Below are positions 19,011 through 38,686 of a stretch of 38,686 nt of DNA, piece by piece. The first letter of the stretch is position 1. Each line of letters starts with the position of its first letter. Under the pieces are notes generated by a model. The model was given only the letters and a program-made list of their open reading frames with translations. It was not told the origin of the DNA and ran no database searches. Position numbers and translations under genes: made by a program. The stretch is from Deltaproteobacteria bacterium (GTDB taxonomy: Bacteria; Desulfobacterota; DSM-4660; Desulfatiglandales; HGW-15): contig JAFDAM010000013.1 in NCBI GenBank assembly GCA_019313825.1, positions 1 through 38,686 of the forward strand. Reading direction: 5' to 3'.

Positions 19011-19808
19011 CTATTGAATCCTTCCTTCTGACTCCACTATCTCCACGAGCAGCTCCGTTAAACCATCCACACATGCTTCAATAGCTTTCTCACCGTATTC
19101 CTTTGAGGACACAGTCGGATCTCCCATCACACCTGCATCCTCTCCCATCTGTGGAAATTTCCGGGCAGTATGAATCAGTTTCCTTGAGCCATAGAAATCA
19201 CAAGAGAACCATTTCTCCGGCAAGGGAAGAGGGGGGATCTCTTTTACTGCCTCATTCATATCCACATTCTCCGGCTGTATAACAAGGGTGGCGGAAGTTT
19301 CAAGCTCACAGGCATGCGCCATTACATCTGATTTCCGTTCCCCCAGAATAAATTCCGAGCCCAGCACCCACCAGTACACAGCGAAAAGGCCCAGTTCCGG
19401 AAAGTCCGAGGATATCTTGCGAAGAGCTACCGAGATGGGAAGAGTGTTGCTGAAGTGGCCGTTAATGACCAGAATGTTTTTAAACCCCTGGCTGATGAAA
19501 CCCCTGACAATGTCCTCGATAACCCTGATTGTCGTATCCACGGAAAGCCCGACGGTTCCAGGGTAGTGCCGAAAAGTGAAAGTCTCCCCGTAAGAAACAG
19601 GGGGGGCAACCAGTGCCCTGATGTTTTTCTCCTTTCTGACCCTTATTGCGCCCAGTTCCGATACATGGGCGGCGCAACGGGTATCAACACTGAGCGGGAG
19701 GTGCCTTCCATGCTGCTCAAGACAGCCTGTCGGCAAAATAACCACATTGGGTGTCTTTAGGGCCTCCTCAACCTCAGGCCATCGCATATCTTCTAACATG
19801 ACTTTCAT
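19011..19808 (-). CDS. Creatininase-fold metal-dependent amidohydrolase, copy 1
   Basis: 265 residues, the usual length of the creatininase family. The metal-binding segment is GCLEQHGRHLPLSVD with Glu31, His33 and Asp42; NGHFSN gives His118 and HACELETS gives Glu168. These match the ligands of creatinine amidohydrolase, which opens a five-membered C-N ring with two divalent metals. The family also includes formamide deformylases and peptide-trimming enzymes, so the substrate is open. It starts behind AAGGAGA, 13 bases after the ATC-hydrolase-family gene, and runs into the Mo enzyme copy 2. A related copy lies at 23629-24450. Confidence 0.88.
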   Translation of the reverse strand: MKVMLEDMRWPEVEEALKTPNVVILPTGCLEQHGRHLPLSVDTRCAAHVSELGAIRVRKEKNIRALVAPPVSYGETFTFRHYPGTVGLSVDTTIRVIEDIVRGFISQGFKNILVINGHFSNTLPISVALRKISSDFPELGLFAVYWWVLGSEFILGERKSDVMAHACELETSATLVIQPENVDMNEAVKEIPPLPLPEKWFSCDFYGSRKLIHTARKFPQMGEDAGVMGDPTVSSKEYGEKAIEACVDGLTELLVEIVESEGRIQ

Positions 19809-19821
19809 AACGGTCTCCTTT

Positions 19822-20427
19822 TTAATCTTCTATCTCCGCTACAAACTCACAGTAGTCATCTCCATCAAGAAAAAATTTTGTTCTCGCAAATTTCATATCC
19901 GGGTTGAAGCCTTTTGCCCAGGCAGTATCATGGGGGCACATGTATTTTACAACCTCTAGTGTATCCTGATCTTCAGAACAATGCGAGGCTTCCACCAGTC
20001 CTTTCGAATCTCCGGCCCCAAAATTTAGAAGAGACTCTGCTTGAGAACATTTTGTACATCTGAAGAGATATTTCTTTTCTGTCCTTTCAATAACTTCGGG
20101 AATGGGTGCTGTAGGGATGCAGGCCAGAAGGTTAATAGTATTGGCTTCAACATAACCGTCTATGTCTTTGGGGTTGCCCGCTTTTTCTGCCGCATCTTTT
20201 CCCCTCTGAAGGAAAATGGAATACTGGGCCTCTTCGAGAAGCTCCTTTGCCTTCTCTTTGCCGACCTGGGATATTAGCACTTTCACAACCGTAAAGAGAT
20301 CTCGGGCCCTTAAGGCCAACGCGCTTTTAACAAGAGCTTCCTTGCTGATGGAATCCAATTTATCAGCCTCAAGTCCCCGGTGTTGTTCACTCGTAACTAT
20401 AAGACTTACAAAATTCTCTTTGCCCAT
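19822..20427 (-). CDS. L-2-amino-thiazoline-4-carboxylate hydrolase (ATC hydrolase) family protein
   Basis: 201 residues, cytoplasmic. The start is the ATG at 20427, which has AAAGGAGA at 20435-20442; an earlier TTG would overlap that site. The N-terminal half is helical (ISKEALVKSALALRARDLF to the KEKAKELLEEA helix). The C-terminal half has the cysteine-bearing pattern of the family: FRCTKC (~122-127), ASHCSED (~148), YMCPHD (~163) and the closing DGDDYCEFVAEI. Characterised members open the thiazoline ring of ATC to S-carbamoylcysteine, but many relatives have no known role. It sits between dctM copy 2 and a creatininase-fold gene. A second member begins at 38332 on the other strand. Family assignment is from pattern only; function on this substrate is not shown. 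Confidence 0.68.
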   Translation of the reverse strand: MGKENFVSLIVTSEQHRGLEADKLDSISKEALVKSALALRARDLFTVVKVLISQVGKEKAKELLEEAQYSIFLQRGKDAAEKAGNPKDIDGYVEANTINLLACIPTAPIPEVIERTEKKYLFRCTKCSQAESLLNFGAGDSKGLVEASHCSEDQDTLEVVKYMCPHDTAWAKGFNPDMKFARTKFFLDGDDYCEFVAEIED

Positions 20428-20472
20428 AGTGTTGTCTCCTTTCAAAATAGTCTTTTAATGAAATCTCCCTGG

Positions 20473-21786
20473 TTAATACATCAGTTCCGGCAACCATAGT
20501 GCTACGGACGGAAAGGCAATTATCACTGCGATGGCTATAACATCACAATAAAGGAATGGTAAAGCAGCCCGATATATAGTTGCCATTGTAGTATCAGGAG
20601 GGGAAACACTCTTCATGACAAAAAGGGATAACCCGAATGGCGGTGATGTCGTACCCATCTCCATATTGAGAAGATAGATGACAGCAAACCATATAGGGTC
20701 AAAACCCAGTTCATAAATAATGGGCATAAAAATAGGAACCGTAATCATCATGATGGGGACAACGCCCAGAAACATTCCTAAAAAGATCAGCACCAACTGA
20801 ATGGTTATGATAATCATTATGGGAGACAGAGGAAGGCCGGTTGTAAATCGAACCAGCCCCTCGCTGGCACCGGTAAAGGCCATGATCTGGCTGAAACAGG
20901 TTGCAGTTGCAATAATCATAAGCATCATAACAGTGATTCTAAAGGCATTTTTAATGGATTTTTTAACCATATCCCACTTAAGTGTTCCATAAGCCGCAGC
21001 CAAAGCAAAAGTGCCGAAGCAGCCCGTAGCCGCTGCTTCAGTCGGCGTAGCAATACCAACGAAGATAACACCGACGACAAGAAAGATAATGATCGACAGG
21101 GGCAGCACATACTTTACAAGAGAAATGATTTTGTCTGACATGGGAGTTGGGGGAACATAATAAGGTGGGGCAATGGATGGCTGTATCCAGCACCTTATGA
21201 TGATATATCCTGCATACAAAAATGCCATCACAATCCCGGGGATGATAATGGCAACCAACAGCTTGCCGATTGATATCTCCCCAATAGCGCCTAAAAGAAC
21301 GGCCAGGCTGCTCGGGGGAATCATGATGGCAAGCCCTCCGCTACCCAGGATCGGCCCCAGGGTCATGGGTTTTTGATAACCTTTCTTCTCCATCTCGGGA
21401 ACCAACGTTGAACCCAGCATGGCCGTGCTACCCATACTGGCACCTGTCAATGTTGAAAGAAGAGCTCCTCCTGCCACGGCCAGCAGTCCGAGTCTGCCGG
21501 GCATTCGGCCCAATAATTTGTCTAAGGTATCGATCAGGTTTACAACCAGCCCGGAATTGTACATGACTTCGCCCATAAGAATAAACAAGGGCAACGGCAA
21601 TAATGCAAAGATGGTTACTGACTGAAAAGTGCTCCTTATGACCCCATGTAAACCGCTCAGACCTCCCCAGAGGAAATAAGCGAATATGGTGTTCATGAGC
21701 AAAAAAGCGAATGCCACCGGCATTCCGGACAACATCAAAAAAATAAGGCCGCCAAATATGATTAAGAAGACCAACCACCATTCCAT
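20473..21786 (-). CDS. dctM: TRAP transporter large permease (DctM family), copy 2
   Basis: 437 residues with the same helix layout as copy 1 and long identical runs, for example GGLAIMIPPSSLAVLLGAI and PLFILMGEVMY. It starts at MEWWL behind GAGAGG, 24 bases after dctQ copy 2. The near identity of the permeases suggests that the two carriers take related substrates, with the specificity set by the more divergent binding proteins. The next gene downstream is the ATC-hydrolase-family gene, 45 bases away, so uptake and hydrolysis are probably co-transcribed. Confidence 0.93.
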   Translation of the reverse strand: MEWWLVFLIIFGGLIFLMLSGMPVAFAFLLMNTIFAYFLWGGLSGLHGVIRSTFQSVTIFALLPLPLFILMGEVMYNSGLVVNLIDTLDKLLGRMPGRLGLLAVAGGALLSTLTGASMGSTAMLGSTLVPEMEKKGYQKPMTLGPILGSGGLAIMIPPSSLAVLLGAIGEISIGKLLVAIIIPGIVMAFLYAGYIIIRCWIQPSIAPPYYVPPTPMSDKIISLVKYVLPLSIIIFLVVGVIFVGIATPTEAAATGCFGTFALAAAYGTLKWDMVKKSIKNAFRITVMMLMIIATATCFSQIMAFTGASEGLVRFTTGLPLSPIMIIITIQLVLIFLGMFLGVVPIMMITVPIFMPIIYELGFDPIWFAVIYLLNMEMGTTSPPFGLSLFVMKSVSPPDTTMATIYRAALPFLYCDVIAIAVIIAFPSVALWLPELMY

Positions 21787-21810: not shown

Positions 21811-22335
21811 TTATGCCAATACTCGTTCTTTTTCTTTTTTCGGTTCCTTAACAATCAGAAAGCCGTGGGCCCTTCTCATGAATTGTACAAAAAGTAAAAA
21901 AAAGCCTATGGGGATGACAATAAAGATAGGAAAGTCCGGTGGGGCTACCAGTGTAGGCTGATGAAGACCTCTTTGTAAATGATCCACTGCCACCTCTATA
22001 CCTGACCAGGTAAGAAGAAGGCAAAGAAGGCCGCTTATAATGGAGGTGGTAACCTTAAGAAACCGCTGAGTCCTCGGGTTCAGGAAAGCCATTATAATAT
22101 CCATCTCCACATGTCCCTCATTTTTTAATAACCAGGCAGTACCTAAAAAGGTCATGTACAGCATTGTATATTCACTTAATTCGATGACCCATATTGTCCC
22201 GCGTCCCAAAAAATACCTGGTAAACACTTCCCAGCATACGGCCAACATCATCATAAACAGAAGTACCATCCCTATCACGGCTAACAAACTTAATATGAAA
22301 TCAAATCCGTTCCAAATCTTTTTTATCTTTTCCAT
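21811..22335 (-). CDS. dctQ: TRAP transporter small permease (DctQ family), copy 2
   Basis: 174 residues, identical in length to copy 1, four predicted membrane helices. Shared landmarks include CWEVFTRYFLGRGTIWVIELSEY, GHVEMDII and PPDFPIFIVIPIGFFLLFVQFMRR. An AGAGGA site lies upstream of the ATG at a somewhat long spacing. Works with DctM copy 2 in the inner membrane. Confidence 0.93.
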   Translation of the reverse strand: MEKIKKIWNGFDFILSLLAVIGMVLLFMMMLAVCWEVFTRYFLGRGTIWVIELSEYTMLYMTFLGTAWLLKNEGHVEMDIIMAFLNPRTQRFLKVTTSIISGLLCLLLTWSGIEVAVDHLQRGLHQPTLVAPPDFPIFIVIPIGFFLLFVQFMRRAHGFLIVKEPKKEKERVLA

Positions 22336-22459: not shown

Positions 22460-23482
22460 TCATTGGGAAAGACGGCTTTCATCAAACAGCATCTTCCGCA
22501 ACTTTGGGCCCTCGACCGGCTCCTTTGCTATGATACTCTCCCATGCGGATTCATAGGCCTTTTTTAGATATACCTTGGCATCAGCCGGTGAAAGTTCAAT
22601 AACCTTCACACCACTTTGCTCTACCAATTTTGTCTCGTCATTCGTAAAGTTGACAAACCATTCTCCACCATTAGGATCGGGATCCCATACATTATATTTC
22701 CAATCCTTGATCTTTTTCTGTAAATCTTTTGGAACCTTGTCCCAGCTTTTGGGATTGATCAGGAGAGCCAGACCACCTCGATAAAACGGGGGTTTTATCA
22801 TATACTTGGTCACTTCATGCCAGCTATGGCCCTTTACAAAACCGCCCGTGGACATGACAAACCCATCAACAACTCCCCGGTCCATGGCGGAATATATCTC
22901 GTGCTGTCCCATCATAACAGGGGCTGCCCCCAGGGCTTTCATGAAAGGTGTTATTGCCGGAAAAACACGTATTTTCTTCCCGACAAAATCTTTTAAAGAT
23001 TTGACCTCAAAGTTAGTGAAAATAAAAAACGGCACATCAAATGTGATCTCTCCCAAATATCCTAACCCGATTTTCCTGTGGATTTCTTCATGGATGTCAT
23101 AAAAACCTTTTTTAAGCAGCTCGGCACGCGTGAGGTTTGAAAACATATTGACATGAGACAATGGAGTCAGAGAAGAGTAAAAGCTGCAGGAAGTGAGTGC
23201 CATATCAATCTGTCCGCTCCTGACTGCCTCATGTTGCTGAAATGGACCGATGACTTCAGGCCCACCGAGTAAATTTATTATGACTTGTCCGTTGAACTTC
23301 TTTTTTAGCGCATCTGCAAACATCATAAGATTCTTAGATATGGGCTTACCTTTGGGCTGCATTGTAACTATTTTAAACGTTACTGTTTTTGCTTCGATAT
23401 TAACCACCAGGTATGGTATTAAAGACAGTATTAATAATAGCGTTAAGCCTCCGATGTATTTTTTAAAACTTTTCCTATTCAT
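22460..23482 (-). CDS. dctP: TRAP transporter substrate-binding protein (DctP family), copy 2
   Basis: 340 residues. The N-terminus has a basic MNRKSFKKYIGG and a hydrophobic stretch LTLLLILSLIPYLVV ending near IEAKT, a Sec signal peptide. Core motifs are AVRSGQIDMALTSCSFYSS, GKKIRVFPA (~180, conserved Arg), QHEIYSAMDRGVVDGFVM and HSWHEVTKYMI. It starts behind ACAGGAGGG. Compared with copy 1 the core is well conserved but the C-terminal third and the inserted DPNGGEWFVNF segment differ, consistent with a related but not identical organic-acid ligand. It lies 146 bases after a creatininase-fold gene. Confidence 0.93.
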   Translation of the reverse strand: MNRKSFKKYIGGLTLLLILSLIPYLVVNIEAKTVTFKIVTMQPKGKPISKNLMMFADALKKKFNGQVIINLLGGPEVIGPFQQHEAVRSGQIDMALTSCSFYSSLTPLSHVNMFSNLTRAELLKKGFYDIHEEIHRKIGLGYLGEITFDVPFFIFTNFEVKSLKDFVGKKIRVFPAITPFMKALGAAPVMMGQHEIYSAMDRGVVDGFVMSTGGFVKGHSWHEVTKYMIKPPFYRGGLALLINPKSWDKVPKDLQKKIKDWKYNVWDPDPNGGEWFVNFTNDETKLVEQSGVKVIELSPADAKVYLKKAYESAWESIIAKEPVEGPKLRKMLFDESRLSQ

Positions 23483-23628: not shown

Positions 23629-24450
23629 CTAATCCTTCTCTTCGTGCTTCATACTCTCTGATTGCGCTATGGCCACAATCATCTCCGCAAGCACGTCAAT
23701 AACCGCAGTATTTATCTTTTCTCCCGCCTCTTTAGTCGCCGGGACCGATCCCTTTAAATGCAGTCCCGAAACTCTTAAACCGGGAACACGGGTGTTGCAA
23801 AAGACCAACCCACGTCCGATAGGGGTCATAAATTTCGGGGGTAGGGACATGCCGTGCGATCCTTCGTAGACCGCATCCTCCATCCGGACATTCTCCGGTT
23901 CTATGGCAAGGGCGACGGCTGTTTCTCTTTCCCCGGCATGACCCTGGACCTCCTTTCCACCATTACAGACACTATCCCACACATCCTGTGCCAGGTTATA
24001 TGAATTGGCTGCAAATAAACCAATATCACTAAATTCCAGTTGAACTTTGCGAATGGCAATGGAGATAGGAGGGGTGTTTTGCCAGTGCCCGTTAAGCACC
24101 AGAATATTTTTAAATCCCTGAAGCACAAGGCTCCGCAAAATATCCGTAATAAGCCCGATGGAAATATCCAGGCTGATTGAGATATCACCGGGCCTGGGCC
24201 TTTCAAAGGGAGGTCCGCCAAACGCTTCACCATAAGCGACGGTTGGAGCCACCAGGACATGAACGTCGTTTTCAGCAGTGACCTTTTTAGCTGCCTCTTC
24301 GGCCAGGTATGTGACGGAAAAGGCATCAAAGTTTACCGGCAGATGTTTACCGTGCTGCTCGGTAGAGCCAACAGGCAGAATAACCACATTGGATTTTTTT
24401 AACACCTCCTCAATCTCAGGTGACCTCATATCCGCAAATCTTACTTTCAT
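23629..24450 (-). CDS. Creatininase-fold metal-dependent amidohydrolase, copy 2
   Basis: 273 residues. Metal ligands are seen in GSTEQHGKHLPVNFD (Glu31, His33, Asp42), LNGHWQN (His122) and HAGERET (Glu174). It has a longer loop than copy 1 after AYGEAFGG (PPFERPRPGD). It starts behind GTAGGAGG. It follows the GrdE-like gene by 68 bases and precedes dctP copy 2, so hydrolase, carrier and GrdE-like protein are likely one transcription unit. Family known reactions are ring opening or amide hydrolysis; the substrate here is unknown. Confidence 0.88.
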   Translation of the reverse strand: MKVRFADMRSPEIEEVLKKSNVVILPVGSTEQHGKHLPVNFDAFSVTYLAEEAAKKVTAENDVHVLVAPTVAYGEAFGGPPFERPRPGDISISLDISIGLITDILRSLVLQGFKNILVLNGHWQNTPPISIAIRKVQLEFSDIGLFAANSYNLAQDVWDSVCNGGKEVQGHAGERETAVALAIEPENVRMEDAVYEGSHGMSLPPKFMTPIGRGLVFCNTRVPGLRVSGLHLKGSVPATKEAGEKINTAVIDVLAEMIVAIAQSESMKHEEKD

Positions 24451-24518: not shown

Positions 24519-25799
24519 TTAATATTCAACCGAAACAAAGTTTGAATGACCCAGGTTGTCTGGTATTCCTAGGATGTCCCACTTCGATCTTCTAAACTCA
24601 TCATTAATCGACTCGCCTGTTGGGAGTATACCCGGTATTCCTATTATTTTCCCCATAGCAGGGAATTTGAGAGGCTTTGCTAAATTGGCTGTCGCCGTTA
24701 TTGCGTTAACCTTCGGATAGTTAAACAATATACCTCCAGCTCCTGCAGGAGTCATATTCCACATAAGAAGTGCTGTTTTGACACCGAGTTCTTCACACTT
24801 AGCAGCAGCTTGCCCCATATCAATTTCAGGTGCCCCACCCCATGCTTTGGTGAGAATTACTCCATCCGCACCTAATACCGACTTCACAAGCTTGGCCGCC
24901 ATAACTCCCGATCTTTCTATCTCTTGATCAGTGCTATGGGATACTGTAAGAACCACACCACAAAAACAGAGATCCTTTCCGTGTCTGGAGTATAGCTCTT
25001 TGATGACTGAATGGTTTTGAACGGCGTATGTCTCGCCTGCGCCTCCCTTAAAAGCATCAACAATGGCCCCGTCAAAGACTTCATTCGGATGAATAATAGT
25101 CGGGAAAAGACTTCTGATACTGTCACCATAAAAGATAGGCTCACCTCTTATCTTTTCTAGCTGGTTCATATAGACCTGGAAGATGTATGCCACTTTAGGC
25201 AAGCCTTCCATGCCTTTGGAGGTTTCTGTGAGAGGTGGCAATTCATATACCTCTTTTTCATCCGGGACCAATTCTTTTCCTGCGCTGGCCAGGTACACTG
25301 AAGTCTTCAACCCGGCGATTTTAAGGGCTAAGAGATAATCATTCCTATTAACACTATCAGACGGTTTGGGAAGAACCGCTACAATCTGTTTTTTGGAATA
25401 GATGCTGAATTCCGCGGCAGGTCCGGACATATCTAAGATCTTACCAGGCAGATAAGGACCTTTTAAACATAGCTGACTTTGGTCATTAATAATTACAGCA
25501 ACATTACGAAGTACACATGTGCTCCCTTCTCCTGCAATTCCCTGTTTACCTAATGCGCCGGGGAAGTCTTCAACCAAGCTGTCAATTTTTGCCCTTGGCT
25601 CAATAACATCTGCAACTTGCAGTATCCTGCTGTTTTCACCGGGTCTGGCAAGCGCGATATCTACACTTTCAAATCTTTTATCCTTTTGTAAAAGTTCCTT
25701 AAGCTCTTGATGGTCGATCTGGAGTATATTGTTTTTAATCCCAGTCTTACCATTAAGACGCACATCTTTAATGTTAAGTATCCGAAGTTCTAACCTCAC
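24519..25799 (-). CDS. GrdE-like protein (glycine/sarcosine/betaine reductase component B alpha/beta-type) lacking the processing cysteine
   Basis: 426 residues, collinear with the canonical GrdE at 35393-36682: RLELRILNIKDVRL, ALARPGENSRILQVADVIEPRAK, GKILDMSGPAAEFS, FPTIIHPNEVFDGAIV, SVIKELYSRHG and LGADGVILTKAWGG correspond to the same blocks there. True GrdE proteins are cut at an Asn-Cys bond to make a pyruvoyl cofactor; GrdE here has GNCVSACDK. At the matching place this protein reads VDAFKGGAGETY, with no Cys, so self-cleavage and a pyruvoyl group seem impossible. No GrdB-like partner is adjacent. It may be a degenerate substrate-binding or regulatory relative, or use another mechanism. 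The start is a GTG behind a run of G. It leads the creatininase-TRAP-ATC-hydrolase gene set. Confidence 0.82.
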   Translation of the reverse strand: MRLELRILNIKDVRLNGKTGIKNNILQIDHQELKELLQKDKRFESVDIALARPGENSRILQVADVIEPRAKIDSLVEDFPGALGKQGIAGEGSTCVLRNVAVIINDQSQLCLKGPYLPGKILDMSGPAAEFSIYSKKQIVAVLPKPSDSVNRNDYLLALKIAGLKTSVYLASAGKELVPDEKEVYELPPLTETSKGMEGLPKVAYIFQVYMNQLEKIRGEPIFYGDSIRSLFPTIIHPNEVFDGAIVDAFKGGAGETYAVQNHSVIKELYSRHGKDLCFCGVVLTVSHSTDQEIERSGVMAAKLVKSVLGADGVILTKAWGGAPEIDMGQAAAKCEELGVKTALLMWNMTPAGAGGILFNYPKVNAITATANLAKPLKFPAMGKIIGIPGILPTGESINDEFRRSKWDILGIPDNLGHSNFVSVEY

Positions 25800-35346: not shown

Positions 35347-35379
35347 GACAACCCGTAAGTTCCCCTGTCCTTTTTTTTT
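35327..35379 (+). terminator. Intrinsic terminator forming the expression platform of the glycine riboswitch
   Basis: AGGACAGGGGA and TCCCCTGTCCT pair, with an inner CGGG/CCCG stem, and nine T residues follow at 35371-35379. The left arm is the closing strand (P1) of the second aptamer, so ligand binding and terminator formation exclude each other. The T-run ends just before the grdE ribosome binding site. Confidence 0.9.
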
Positions 35380-35392
35380 GGGAGGTTTCACA

Positions 35393-36682
35393 ATGACATT
35401 GGAATTAGGACGCATATTGATCGAAGAGGTCAAGTGGGGGCGAAAGACCCTTATAAAAAAGAGGTCCCTGTATATTGATAGAGACGAACTTATTAAGAAG
35501 GCGCAAGGGGGTGATACCCGCATCACCTCTATCACTGCGGAAATTGCAAGGCCTGGTGAAAGCACACGCATAATACCGGTTAAAGACGTGATTGAACCCC
35601 GTGTTAAAGTTGAAGGGCGCGGTGGGATATTCCCGGGTTTTATCTCAGGTGTGGAGACAGTCGGCAGTGGAAGGACCCATGTGCTTCAAGGTTGTTCAGT
35701 GGTGACGGTTGGGCAGGTCGTGGGATTTCAGGAAGGTATGATAGACATGAACGGCCCGGGCGCAGAATACACTTCCTTCTCGAAACTCCTGAATATCGCC
35801 CTGATAATCGATGTCGCAAACAACGTCTCTAAACATGAGCATGAGGAATTGCTTCGTCTTGCCGGTCTGCGTGCCGCCGCGTATCTGGGTGAAGCGGGAC
35901 GCGATGTCAAACCGGGCAGAGTAGACCGGTTTGAATTTAAGAGACCATCTTCGATAAATGAAGGCAGTAAAGATCTTCCCAGGATAGCCTATCTCTATAT
36001 GCTGCTAAGCCAGGGTCTGCTCCATGACAGCTATCTCTACGGGCAAAATGTGAAAAACGTCTTACCCACTCTCCTGCTTCCCACAGAGGTCATGGACGGC
36101 GCCGTTGTAAGCGGCAATTGCGTCTCAGCCTGTGACAAAAACACGACCTACCATCATCAGAACAATCCCATTATTGAGGAACTGTTGATGAGGGACGGGG
36201 TCGATCTCAATTTTGTCGGGATAATCGTATCCAATACAAATATTACGCTAAGGGATAAACAGAGATCTTCGGATTACGCCGTCAAGCTGGTGGAATTGCT
36301 GGGCGCGGATGGTGTGGTCATCTCGAAGGAGGGCTTTGGGAATCCGGACGCGGATGTCATGATGAACTGCGCCAAGATTGAGGAAAAGGGAATTGCCACC
36401 GTCATGGTCACCGATGAATTCGCCGGGATTGACGGAGGTTCGCAATCGCTGGCCGATTCAACCCCCCATGCCAATGCCGTAATCAGCGTGGGAAATGCCA
36501 ATGAATTGATCTCACTTCCACCCATGGATAAGGTCATCGGCGATGAAAGGATAATAGAGAAATTAGCAGGAGGAATGTCCGGCAGCCTAAGCGTAGAAGG
36601 CGGAATCACTGCCGAACTTCAGGTAATTATGGGGGCTACGAATGAGTTGGGATTCGAAACACTGTCCTCGAGGGAGGTGTAG
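35393..36682 (+). CDS. grdE: Glycine reductase component B, alpha/beta subunit proprotein (GrdE)
   Basis: 429 residues, starting at ATG 35393 behind GGGAGG. The GrdE family blocks are present in order, including EIARPGESTRIIPVKDVIEPR, MNGPGAEYTSFS, LPTLLLPTEVMDGAVV and the processing site VSGNCVSACDKNTTY. Family knowledge: the chain is cut between Asn and Cys and the Cys (Cys243 here) becomes a pyruvoyl group that binds the amine substrate as a Schiff base. With GrdB it passes a carboxymethyl group to selenoprotein GrdA. Control by a glycine riboswitch supports glycine rather than sarcosine or betaine as substrate. It ends 8 bases before grdB. GrdA, GrdC and GrdD are not in the window. Confidence 0.92.
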   Translation: MTLELGRILIEEVKWGRKTLIKKRSLYIDRDELIKKAQGGDTRITSITAEIARPGESTRIIPVKDVIEPRVKVEGRGGIFPGFISGVETVGSGRTHVLQGCSVVTVGQVVGFQEGMIDMNGPGAEYTSFSKLLNIALIIDVANNVSKHEHEELLRLAGLRAAAYLGEAGRDVKPGRVDRFEFKRPSSINEGSKDLPRIAYLYMLLSQGLLHDSYLYGQNVKNVLPTLLLPTEVMDGAVVSGNCVSACDKNTTYHHQNNPIIEELLMRDGVDLNFVGIIVSNTNITLRDKQRSSDYAVKLVELLGADGVVISKEGFGNPDADVMMNCAKIEEKGIATVMVTDEFAGIDGGSQSLADSTPHANAVISVGNANELISLPPMDKVIGDERIIEKLAGGMSGSLSVEGGITAELQVIMGATNELGFETLSSREV

Positions 36683-36690
36683 GGTTTGCT

Positions 36691-37998
36691 ATGGAACGAA
36701 AATATCGAGTTGTTCACTATTTGAATCAGTTTTTCGGCCGGATTGGCGGAGAGGATAAGGCCGGCACAGGGCCATTGGGCAGAGAGGGGGCCGTTGGGCC
36801 GGGCCTTCTCTTCCAGGAGTTTTTTGGACATGATGCTGAAGTTGTTGGGACGGTTATATGCGGCGATAACTATTTCAACGAGCACCCGCAGGAGGCAAAG
36901 GACAAATTGCTTGAGTTTATTAAGGGTTACGGGCCGGATATCCTGTTGGCCGGGCCGGCTTTTAACGCGGGAAGGTATGGGATCGCCTGCGGGGCAATCT
37001 GCAGCCACGTATCGGATCAGTTGGGAATCACTTCCGTGACGGGCATGTTCTCTGAAAATGCCGGGGTGGAGTTATACAGGAAGTCCGCCTATATCATTGA
37101 AACAAAGGCCTCGCTTACGGGCATGAAGGACGCGTCCGGGAAGATGGTCACGTTGGCGATGAAACTGGCAAGGGGGGAACGTCTTATCTCTCCCGAGGAA
37201 GAAGGCTATATCCCGAAGGGTGTCCGTATGAACTACTCTGCTGACAAAAAAGGGGCTGCAAGGGCTGTGGATATGCTCCTGAAGAAATTAAAGGGAGAGC
37301 CGTTTACTACCGAGTATTGTATGCCGGTTTTCGATCGTGTAGAGGTCCTGCCTCCCATAGATAATTTAAGTGAGATAACGCTGGCCCTGATTACGAGCGG
37401 AGGAATCGTTCCAAGGGGCAATCCTGATCACATTGAGGCCTCCAGCGCGAAAAGATACGGGAAGTACGATATCCAAGGAGTTGACCAGCTGAGACCGGAT
37501 GAATATGAGACGGCCCACGGCGGTTATGACCCAACCTATGCCAATGAGGACCCGCACCGGGTCCTGCCCCTTGACGTGATAAGGGAGATGGAACAGGAGG
37601 GTGTGATCGACAGGCTCTATCCATATTATTATGCCACGGTGGGGAATGGGACCTCTGTGGCTAATGCAAAGGAGTTTGCCCAAAAGATAGTAAAGGATCT
37701 AATAAGAGATGGTGTCCAAGCCGTTATCATCAGTTCCACATGAGGCTCATGCACTCGTTGCGGGGCAACGATGGCAAAGGAGATAGAGAGGGCCGGTATC
37801 TTAACGGTACATATCTGTACTATTGTCCCAATCTCCAAAACGGTTGGCGCTAACAGGATCATCCCTGCTTCGGCCATTCCCTATCCCCTGGGAGATCCGT
37901 CGAAGTCCAGGGAAGAAGAGAGGGCGTTGCGGCGGAAAATGGTGGAAAAGGCTTTCAATGCAATAAAGACAAAAATTGATGGCCAGAAGGTATTTTAG
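36691..37998 (+). CDS. grdB: Glycine reductase component B, gamma subunit selenoprotein (GrdB), with in-frame UGA as selenocysteine
   Basis: 435 residues if the TGA at 37741-37743 (codon 351) is read as selenocysteine; a conventional reading would stop at 350. After the TGA the same frame continues GSCTRCGATMAKEIERAG to the TAG at 37996-37998, and IISST-U-GSCTRCGATM is the family active-site motif with Sec. The N-terminal part has FFGRIGGEDKA, GPAFNAGRYG and the AYIIETKAS block. Full length matches known GrdB proteins (about 436). The start is an ATG close behind GGAGGTG at the end of grdE. GrdB binds the substrate with the GrdE pyruvoyl subunit and cleaves the C-N bond, with Sec as nucleophile. 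A stem-loop follows the UGA as expected of a bacterial SECIS. Confidence 0.93.
37741..37770 (+). promoter_or_regulatory. Selenocysteine UGA and putative bacterial SECIS stem-loop of grdB
   Basis: The UGA codon at 37741-37743 is followed 12 bases later by CGTTGC-GGG-GCAACG (37756-37770), a perfect 6-bp stem with a GGG loop, possibly closing with longer flanking pairs. Bacterial SECIS elements lie directly 3' of the UGA inside the coding frame, with a G-rich apical loop read by SelB. Position and shape match; exact SelB contacts cannot be checked by eye. Confidence 0.72.
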
Positions 37999-38331: not shown

Positions 38332-38686
38332 ATGGTAACACTGGATGAAAAATTGGCGAGTGTGTCGAGGAGAAAGCTTGCAGAATTGGCGATGGATGCC
38401 TCCGCACGTAACGTAGCCGCTTACTCACAGATGCTTTTGGATGAGTTGGGTAAAGAGAGGGCTATGGAGGTAATCTATAAAAAACGATTTGATGATTCCT
38501 TTAAAATAGGGAAAAGGAACGGCGAAAGACTTGGTGAAAAGACAAAGGAACTTGCCACTCTGGCAGAACATGGAAGTAAAAGTTTTAACCAGCCTTTCGT
38601 AACTCCCAATGAAGTCGTTGAGCTGTCTGAAACAAGGTATGTTACAAGGACAAAAGGCTGCCTGATGGGTGAGGCAATTTTGAGAT
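38332..38686 (+). CDS. ATC-hydrolase-family protein, N-terminal part
   Basis: The gene starts at ATG 38332 behind AAGGAGGAG (38317-38325) and runs off the right edge after 118 codons. The helical N-terminal half can be aligned with the protein of 19822-20427: SRRKLAELAMDASARN with SKEALVKSALALRAR, LLDELGKERAMEVI with LISQVGKEKAKELL, and ETRYVTRTKGC with EKKYLFRCTKC. The cysteine-rich C-terminal half lies outside the window, so the family is inferred by this paralogy alone. It follows grdE and grdB on the same strand. Confidence 0.6.
   Translation, partial: MVTLDEKLASVSRRKLAELAMDASARNVAAYSQMLLDELGKERAMEVIYKKRFDDSFKIGKRNGERLGEKTKELATLAEHGSKSFNQPFVTPNEVVELSETRYVTRTKGCLMGEAILR

Follow-up and report, generated by a model that had tools for sequence, protein, structure and literature searches.

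A GrdE-type protein without the Asn-Cys processing site, probably the substrate-binding subunit of a pyruvoyl-free, selenium-dependent protein B

Accounts of glycine-reductase chemistry usually invoke a pyruvoyl group as the activator of the substrate amine. The stretch of DNA analysed here (38,686 nucleotides, referred to below as the window) contains a gene for a canonical GrdE with the pyruvoyl-processing segment and, apart from it, a gene for a GrdE-type protein in which this segment is replaced. What does such a protein do, and is it still part of a selenoenzyme? The features that bear on this question are listed in Table 1.

Table 1. Features of the window discussed in the text.
Feature	Position	Strand	Remarks
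Cys-less GrdE-type (PF09338) subunit, predicted to be unprocessed	24519..25799	-	426 aa; 302 bits to PF09338
Loop replacing the SGNCVSACDK pyruvoyl-processing segment	25032..25064	-	residues 246-256, IVDAFKGGAGE; loop in AlphaFold model
Creatininase-family amidohydrolase	23629..24450	-	PF02633; 68 bp downstream of the Cys-less gene, at GrdB's place in relatives
TRAP transporter substrate-binding protein DctP	22460..23482	-	profile match
TRAP transporter small permease DctQ	21811..22335	-	profile match
TRAP transporter large permease DctM	20473..21786	-	profile match
ATC_hydrolase-family protein	19822..20445	-	PF14196; in the putative operon of the Cys-less gene
Second creatininase-family amidohydrolase	19011..19808	-	profile match
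Canonical GrdE with GNCVSAC processing site	35378..36682	+	ATG at 35393 is the likelier start
Canonical GrdB selenoprotein	36691..37998	+	UGA 37741-37743, SST-U-GSCTRCG, CxxC kept; sole GrdB found in own genome

The Cys-less gene is intact and starts with a GTG codon, and the PF09338 profile (glycine/sarcosine/betaine reductase component B subunits) covers residues 1–388 of its product with an E value of 7e-90 (score cut-off, 22.2). The protein could be aligned over its whole length with the local canonical GrdE at 33% identity, which bears out the collinearity described in the initial annotation, and it is 44–50% identical to relatives in other genomes. It scored 245.8 bits with the GrdG model (NF040793) and 199.9 bits with the FarE model (NF053623), against curated cut-offs of 780 and 675, respectively, and it differs from betaine GrdI in its loop, in having a TRAP instead of a BCCT transporter, and in occupying a separate branch of the tree. 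The columns conserved throughout the family are mostly kept (50 of 54). Of 136 columns conserved in its own clade (clade A, see below), 18 are changed, including C57S, G99N, N139I and P264S, more than in any other clade member apart from L056. As read from the alignment, these deviations could reflect a changed partner or role. The GC content around the gene (0.43–0.44) is similar to that of its downstream neighbours.

All 74 sampled sequences that have the NCVSAC motif share the processing segment S-G-N-C-V-S-A-C-D-K without variation. Its place in the window protein is taken by D248-A-F-K-G-G-A-G-E256, as originally noted, with a deletion of three residues; Lys251 stands opposite the processed Cys, and the alignment shows no Ser, Thr or Cys within the replacement segment that might substitute for it. 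The flanks of the segment are retained, namely DGA (243–245), T257 and N262. The clade A relatives mostly have Arg or another residue at the position of the processed Cys, but never Ser, Thr or Cys, while the His of a QNH motif (His263), which follows the conserved Asn, does not vary within clade A or its sister group and is mostly Asn in the canonical form. Judged by its sequence, the window protein cannot form a pyruvoyl group from Cys, in agreement with the initial annotation, and, since it lacks the Asn-Cys processing site, it would carry no pyruvoyl group.

AlphaFold models of the window protein (pLDDT 86.6, pTM 0.90) and the canonical GrdE (pLDDT 86.4, pTM 0.89) have the same fold, with a near-identical order of elements, and the processing segment forms a loop in both. 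No sequence relative of the window protein was found in the PDB, and Foldseek searches with the two models gave no confident hit (best E 0.05 and 0.017, TM about 0.2). The GrdE-family fold thus seems not yet to have been solved structurally.

A tree of 51 rows, from which the loop columns had been left out, placed the window protein in a Cys-less clade, denoted clade A (SH-aLRT 98), which comprises 13 rows in this tree and 14 in the full set, and whose members come from Thermodesulfobacteriota, Pseudomonadota, Planctomycetota and Bacillota. We found no description of this clade in the literature searched. Forcing the window protein to group with processed GrdE, GrdG-like and GrdI sequences cost 141 lnL and was rejected by the AU test (p 6.8e-59), indicating that it belongs to an old subfamily and ruling out a recent degenerate copy of the local GrdE. 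The number of Cys changes needed was two on the free 84-row tree and one on the 51-row tree, and a tree in which all Cys-less rows were held together with GrdI fitted equally well (p-AU 0.69). The Cys may thus have been lost either one time or two, in the latter case separately in GrdI. PrdA, used as an outgroup, joined the Cys-containing side on a very long branch. The GrdB partners group in their own tree according to the type of E subunit.

The loss is not peculiar to this locus. We sampled 126 distinct PF09338 proteins, choosing them around the window protein and not as a census. Asn-Cys is missing from 46 of them, most of which precede a GrdB containing an in-frame UGA. With 45 other distinct homologues in this state, the loss in the window protein is not a matter of chance. 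The initial annotation had proposed such a count, together with a structure model and an alignment of the cleavage site; the latter two returned the canonical GrdE fold and a lysine in a loop without Cys. Most of the Cys-less forms fall in one large part of the tree, with members from Thermodesulfobacteriota, Pseudomonadota, Planctomycetota, Chloroflexota, Bacillota and Synergistota.

Further variety was seen among the Cys-less proteins of other genomes. A subclade from Synergistaceae genomes (L210, L213, L237) has the loop DGAI(A/S)(H/P)CGGFRCVTTY, followed by a GrdB with GTSTRCG. At L051/L202 and L054, the genome encodes a second, different Cys-less E type besides the clade A pair, with the loop CGHYNLSVAIKN or CGHYDLPMCMKN; the second E of L054 continues into part of a GrdB-like sequence, perhaps as a broken fusion. 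Two betaproteobacterial MAGs, G465 and G467 (L195, L196, L199, L200, L201), have four and five GrdE-type genes; Asn-Cys is absent from all of those read, and Sec-GrdB, GrdA and GrdC are present in those genomes.

What the relatives do is suggested by their neighbours. GrdB lies directly after the E gene in all 13 of the other clade A genes. An in-frame UGA and the motif TST-U-GTSTR were read in 12 of these GrdB partners, one of which (L046) continues as GTSTRGG, and the 13th runs off its contig. One locus, L054 in G066, had been taken as lacking GrdB, which proved wrong: an antisense ORF had been called, and the other strand translates to a GrdB with UGA. Fuller operons are found in the taxonomic family of the window organism, with the orders E-GrdB-DctP-DctQ-DctM-GrdC-Trx-GrdA (G066), E-GrdB-GrdC-Trx-GrdA (G071) and GrdA-E-GrdB (G081), and in the sister group of clade A (L057, E-GrdB-IclR-GrdC-Trx-GrdA). 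GrdA was present in 12 and GrdC in 11 of the 16 genomes checked. Several clade A members adjoin TRAP or TctA transporters. Since transporters of these types mostly carry carboxylates, the substrate is inferred to be a carboxylate.

The selenocysteine motif of GrdB varies with the type of E subunit. Partners of canonical subunits read U-G-T-C-T-R-C, and those of Cys-less subunits mostly U-G-T-S-T-R-C or U-G-T-G. Among the E/GrdB pairs, 72 have both Asn-Cys and CxxC, 26 have neither, and 10 and 4 are discordant (7 of the 10 being GrdI-type), counts that describe a pattern and not a statistical proof, since the co-loss rests on one or two independent changes in the tree.

In the window, the order is E, creatininase, DctP, DctQ, DctM, ATC_hydrolase-family gene and second creatininase, so that a creatininase occupies the position expected for GrdB, while the TRAP part parallels that of G066. 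Neither GrdB, GrdA nor GrdC was found beside the Cys-less gene, and a tblastn search of the window with 144 GrdB sequences returned no GrdB remnant near it; the matches were the canonical GrdB and others that were spurious or of E type. The break in E-GrdB adjacency in this contig is real. The separation from GrdB, GrdA and GrdC/D, as described in the initial annotation, therefore holds for the window; it does not hold as a general feature, given the GrdB beside every other clade member, several of them with GrdA, GrdC and thioredoxin as well. A search of the organism's own genome found only the canonical GrdB and neither GrdA nor GrdC, but that genome is 65% complete, so that absences outside the contig cannot count as real. 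The in-frame UGA of the canonical GrdB makes it very likely that the genome uses selenocysteine, though GrdA was not found there.

The remainder of the window contains other metabolic genes. The reverse strand between 896 and 20445 encodes decarboxylases of the UbiD type (three as judged by similarity), two molybdopterin oxidoreductases, one subunit of the xanthine-dehydrogenase type, two TRAP transporters and a flavoprotein resembling fumarate reductase. A second ATC_hydrolase-like gene (38332–38686) follows just after the canonical GrdB; it is cut by the end of the contig and has no Pfam match at 1e-5.

According to the initial annotation, no chemistry has been described for a GrdE fold that lacks pyruvoyl. 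This is contradicted by FarE of fluoroacetate reduction and GrdI of betaine reduction, which lack the cysteines and are not pro-proteins (PMC10838667), so that the absence of pyruvoyl has precedents. Like FarE (NF053623; PMC10838667), the window protein is a Cys-less, unprocessed E subunit with a shortened loop. At two FarE loci, one above the curated cut-off and one just below it, the loop reads DGAVIFRYWENTY or DGAVIYRYWDSTY, and the GrdB partner (FarB) has VST-U-GTSTRCG, closely similar to the clade A motif. The GrdB partners of the clade A relatives share with FarB the UxxS in place of UxxC, and the substrate of FarE/FarB is a non-amine carboxylate. Unlike FarE, which has FRYWEN and sits on a long separate branch, the window protein has the DAFKGGAGE loop, and its gene has no adjoining GrdB.

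GrdI resembles the window protein in being an unprocessed GrdE-type subunit, and its substrate cannot form a Schiff base. The E subunits found beside BCCT (betaine-family) transporters, which were taken as GrdI, read SGSFMPCSSK or SGSFMPTSSK, and their partners keep CxxC. They are set apart from the window protein by this loop, which has no deletion, by the GTCTRCG motif of the partner, by the BCCT neighbour and by their position on a different branch. With the GrdE and GrdG pro-proteins, the window protein shares the fold, the length, the DGA...T...N frame and, in its relatives, the GrdB partner, but it lacks their Asn-Cys site and pyruvoyl. It would belong with the known subunits of protein B that do without pyruvoyl, as FarE and GrdI do.

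PrdA and PrdD/PrdE of D-proline reductase have the same domain and are distant homologues. PrdA has Thr-Cys at the aligned cleavage site (Lys251 in the window protein); it differs in an extra N-terminal region, a very long branch and PrdB instead of GrdB as its partner. In the Prd loci (L239, L240 and others in L238–L245), PrdA is accompanied by proteins taken as PrdD and PrdE. These cover columns 3–239 and 245–344 of the GrdE-type profile, as if a PrdA/GrdE-type protein had been split into two genes at the site of pyruvoyl cleavage.

Taken from sequence and gene context, the window protein is probably an E subunit that stays unprocessed and binds the substrate in a protein B of the glycine-reductase type, one that depends on selenium, lacks pyruvoyl and acts on a non-amine carboxylate. 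A substrate-binding role is the most likely one because all 13 other clade A genes are paired with GrdB and fuller operons occur in the same taxonomic family. The E subunit would bind an alpha-substituted carboxylate for which no Schiff base is required, that is, neither a primary nor a secondary amine. The selenolate of GrdB would then attack the alpha carbon directly and expel the leaving group, as inferred for FarEB (fluoride) and GrdHI (trimethylamine), and the resulting selenoether would be handed to GrdA, from which GrdC (with GrdD) would release an acyl-phosphate, with thioredoxin as the reductant. Our best guess is that the window protein pairs in trans with a GrdB, either an unassembled one or the canonical one in the window.

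The main competing explanation is that the gene was cut off from GrdB and took on a new role outside the selenoenzyme, for example in substrate binding or sensing with the adjacent creatininase. The creatininase stands 68 bp downstream, where 13 of 13 clade relatives have GrdB, the window holds no remnant of GrdB, and apart from L056 no clade member is more diverged at the conserved columns. However, most residues conserved across the family have been retained, and GrdA and GrdC, needed by the canonical GrdE/GrdB as well, are likewise missing from this partial genome, so that we consider the explanation rather unlikely. That the protein stands outside the selenoenzyme altogether and works with both the creatininase and the TRAP transporter, for instance as the subunit that binds substrate in a complex for amide hydrolysis or sensing, is to be regarded as unlikely. 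As an inactive paralogue, the protein might instead stabilise GrdB, whether the canonical or the missing one, without binding substrate. A passage in PMC3091704 cites Grobe et al. 2007 for GrdE-derived proteins that stabilise GrdB, and a like role is suggested there for PrdD/PrdE. Such a scaffold is quite unlikely: the relatives pair one-to-one with their own GrdB types, several of them in whole operons, as expected of substrate-specific subunits, and identities of at most 50% with the closest relatives suggest that specificities have diversified.

Two other explanations concern the missing motif itself. A pyruvoyl or other covalent carbonyl might be formed from a different residue, since classical pyruvoyl enzymes use Ser and clade A has the conserved cysteines C57 (absent from the window protein), C95 and C335. 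The loop of the window protein has lost three residues and is free of Ser, Thr and Cys, that of the clade has no conserved nucleophile, and C95 and C335 are distant from the loop in sequence, which makes this highly improbable. Decay of a duplicated canonical GrdE, with which the gene shares genome and family and whose motif it has lost, is scarcely credible: the grouping with processed GrdE and GrdI was rejected, the protein is closer to relatives in other genomes than to the local GrdE, the ORF is intact, and the conserved residues are mostly kept.

The preferred reading, a substrate-binding subunit of a pyruvoyl-free protein B, has a wider bearing. More than one third of the distinct GrdE-type subunits in the sample, which was centred on the window protein, lack the site that makes pyruvoyl, and fluoroacetate reductase was the sole such case for a non-amine carboxylate found in the literature searched. 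This points to under-explored selenium-dependent reductases for non-amine carboxylates, for which concrete operons are now at hand.
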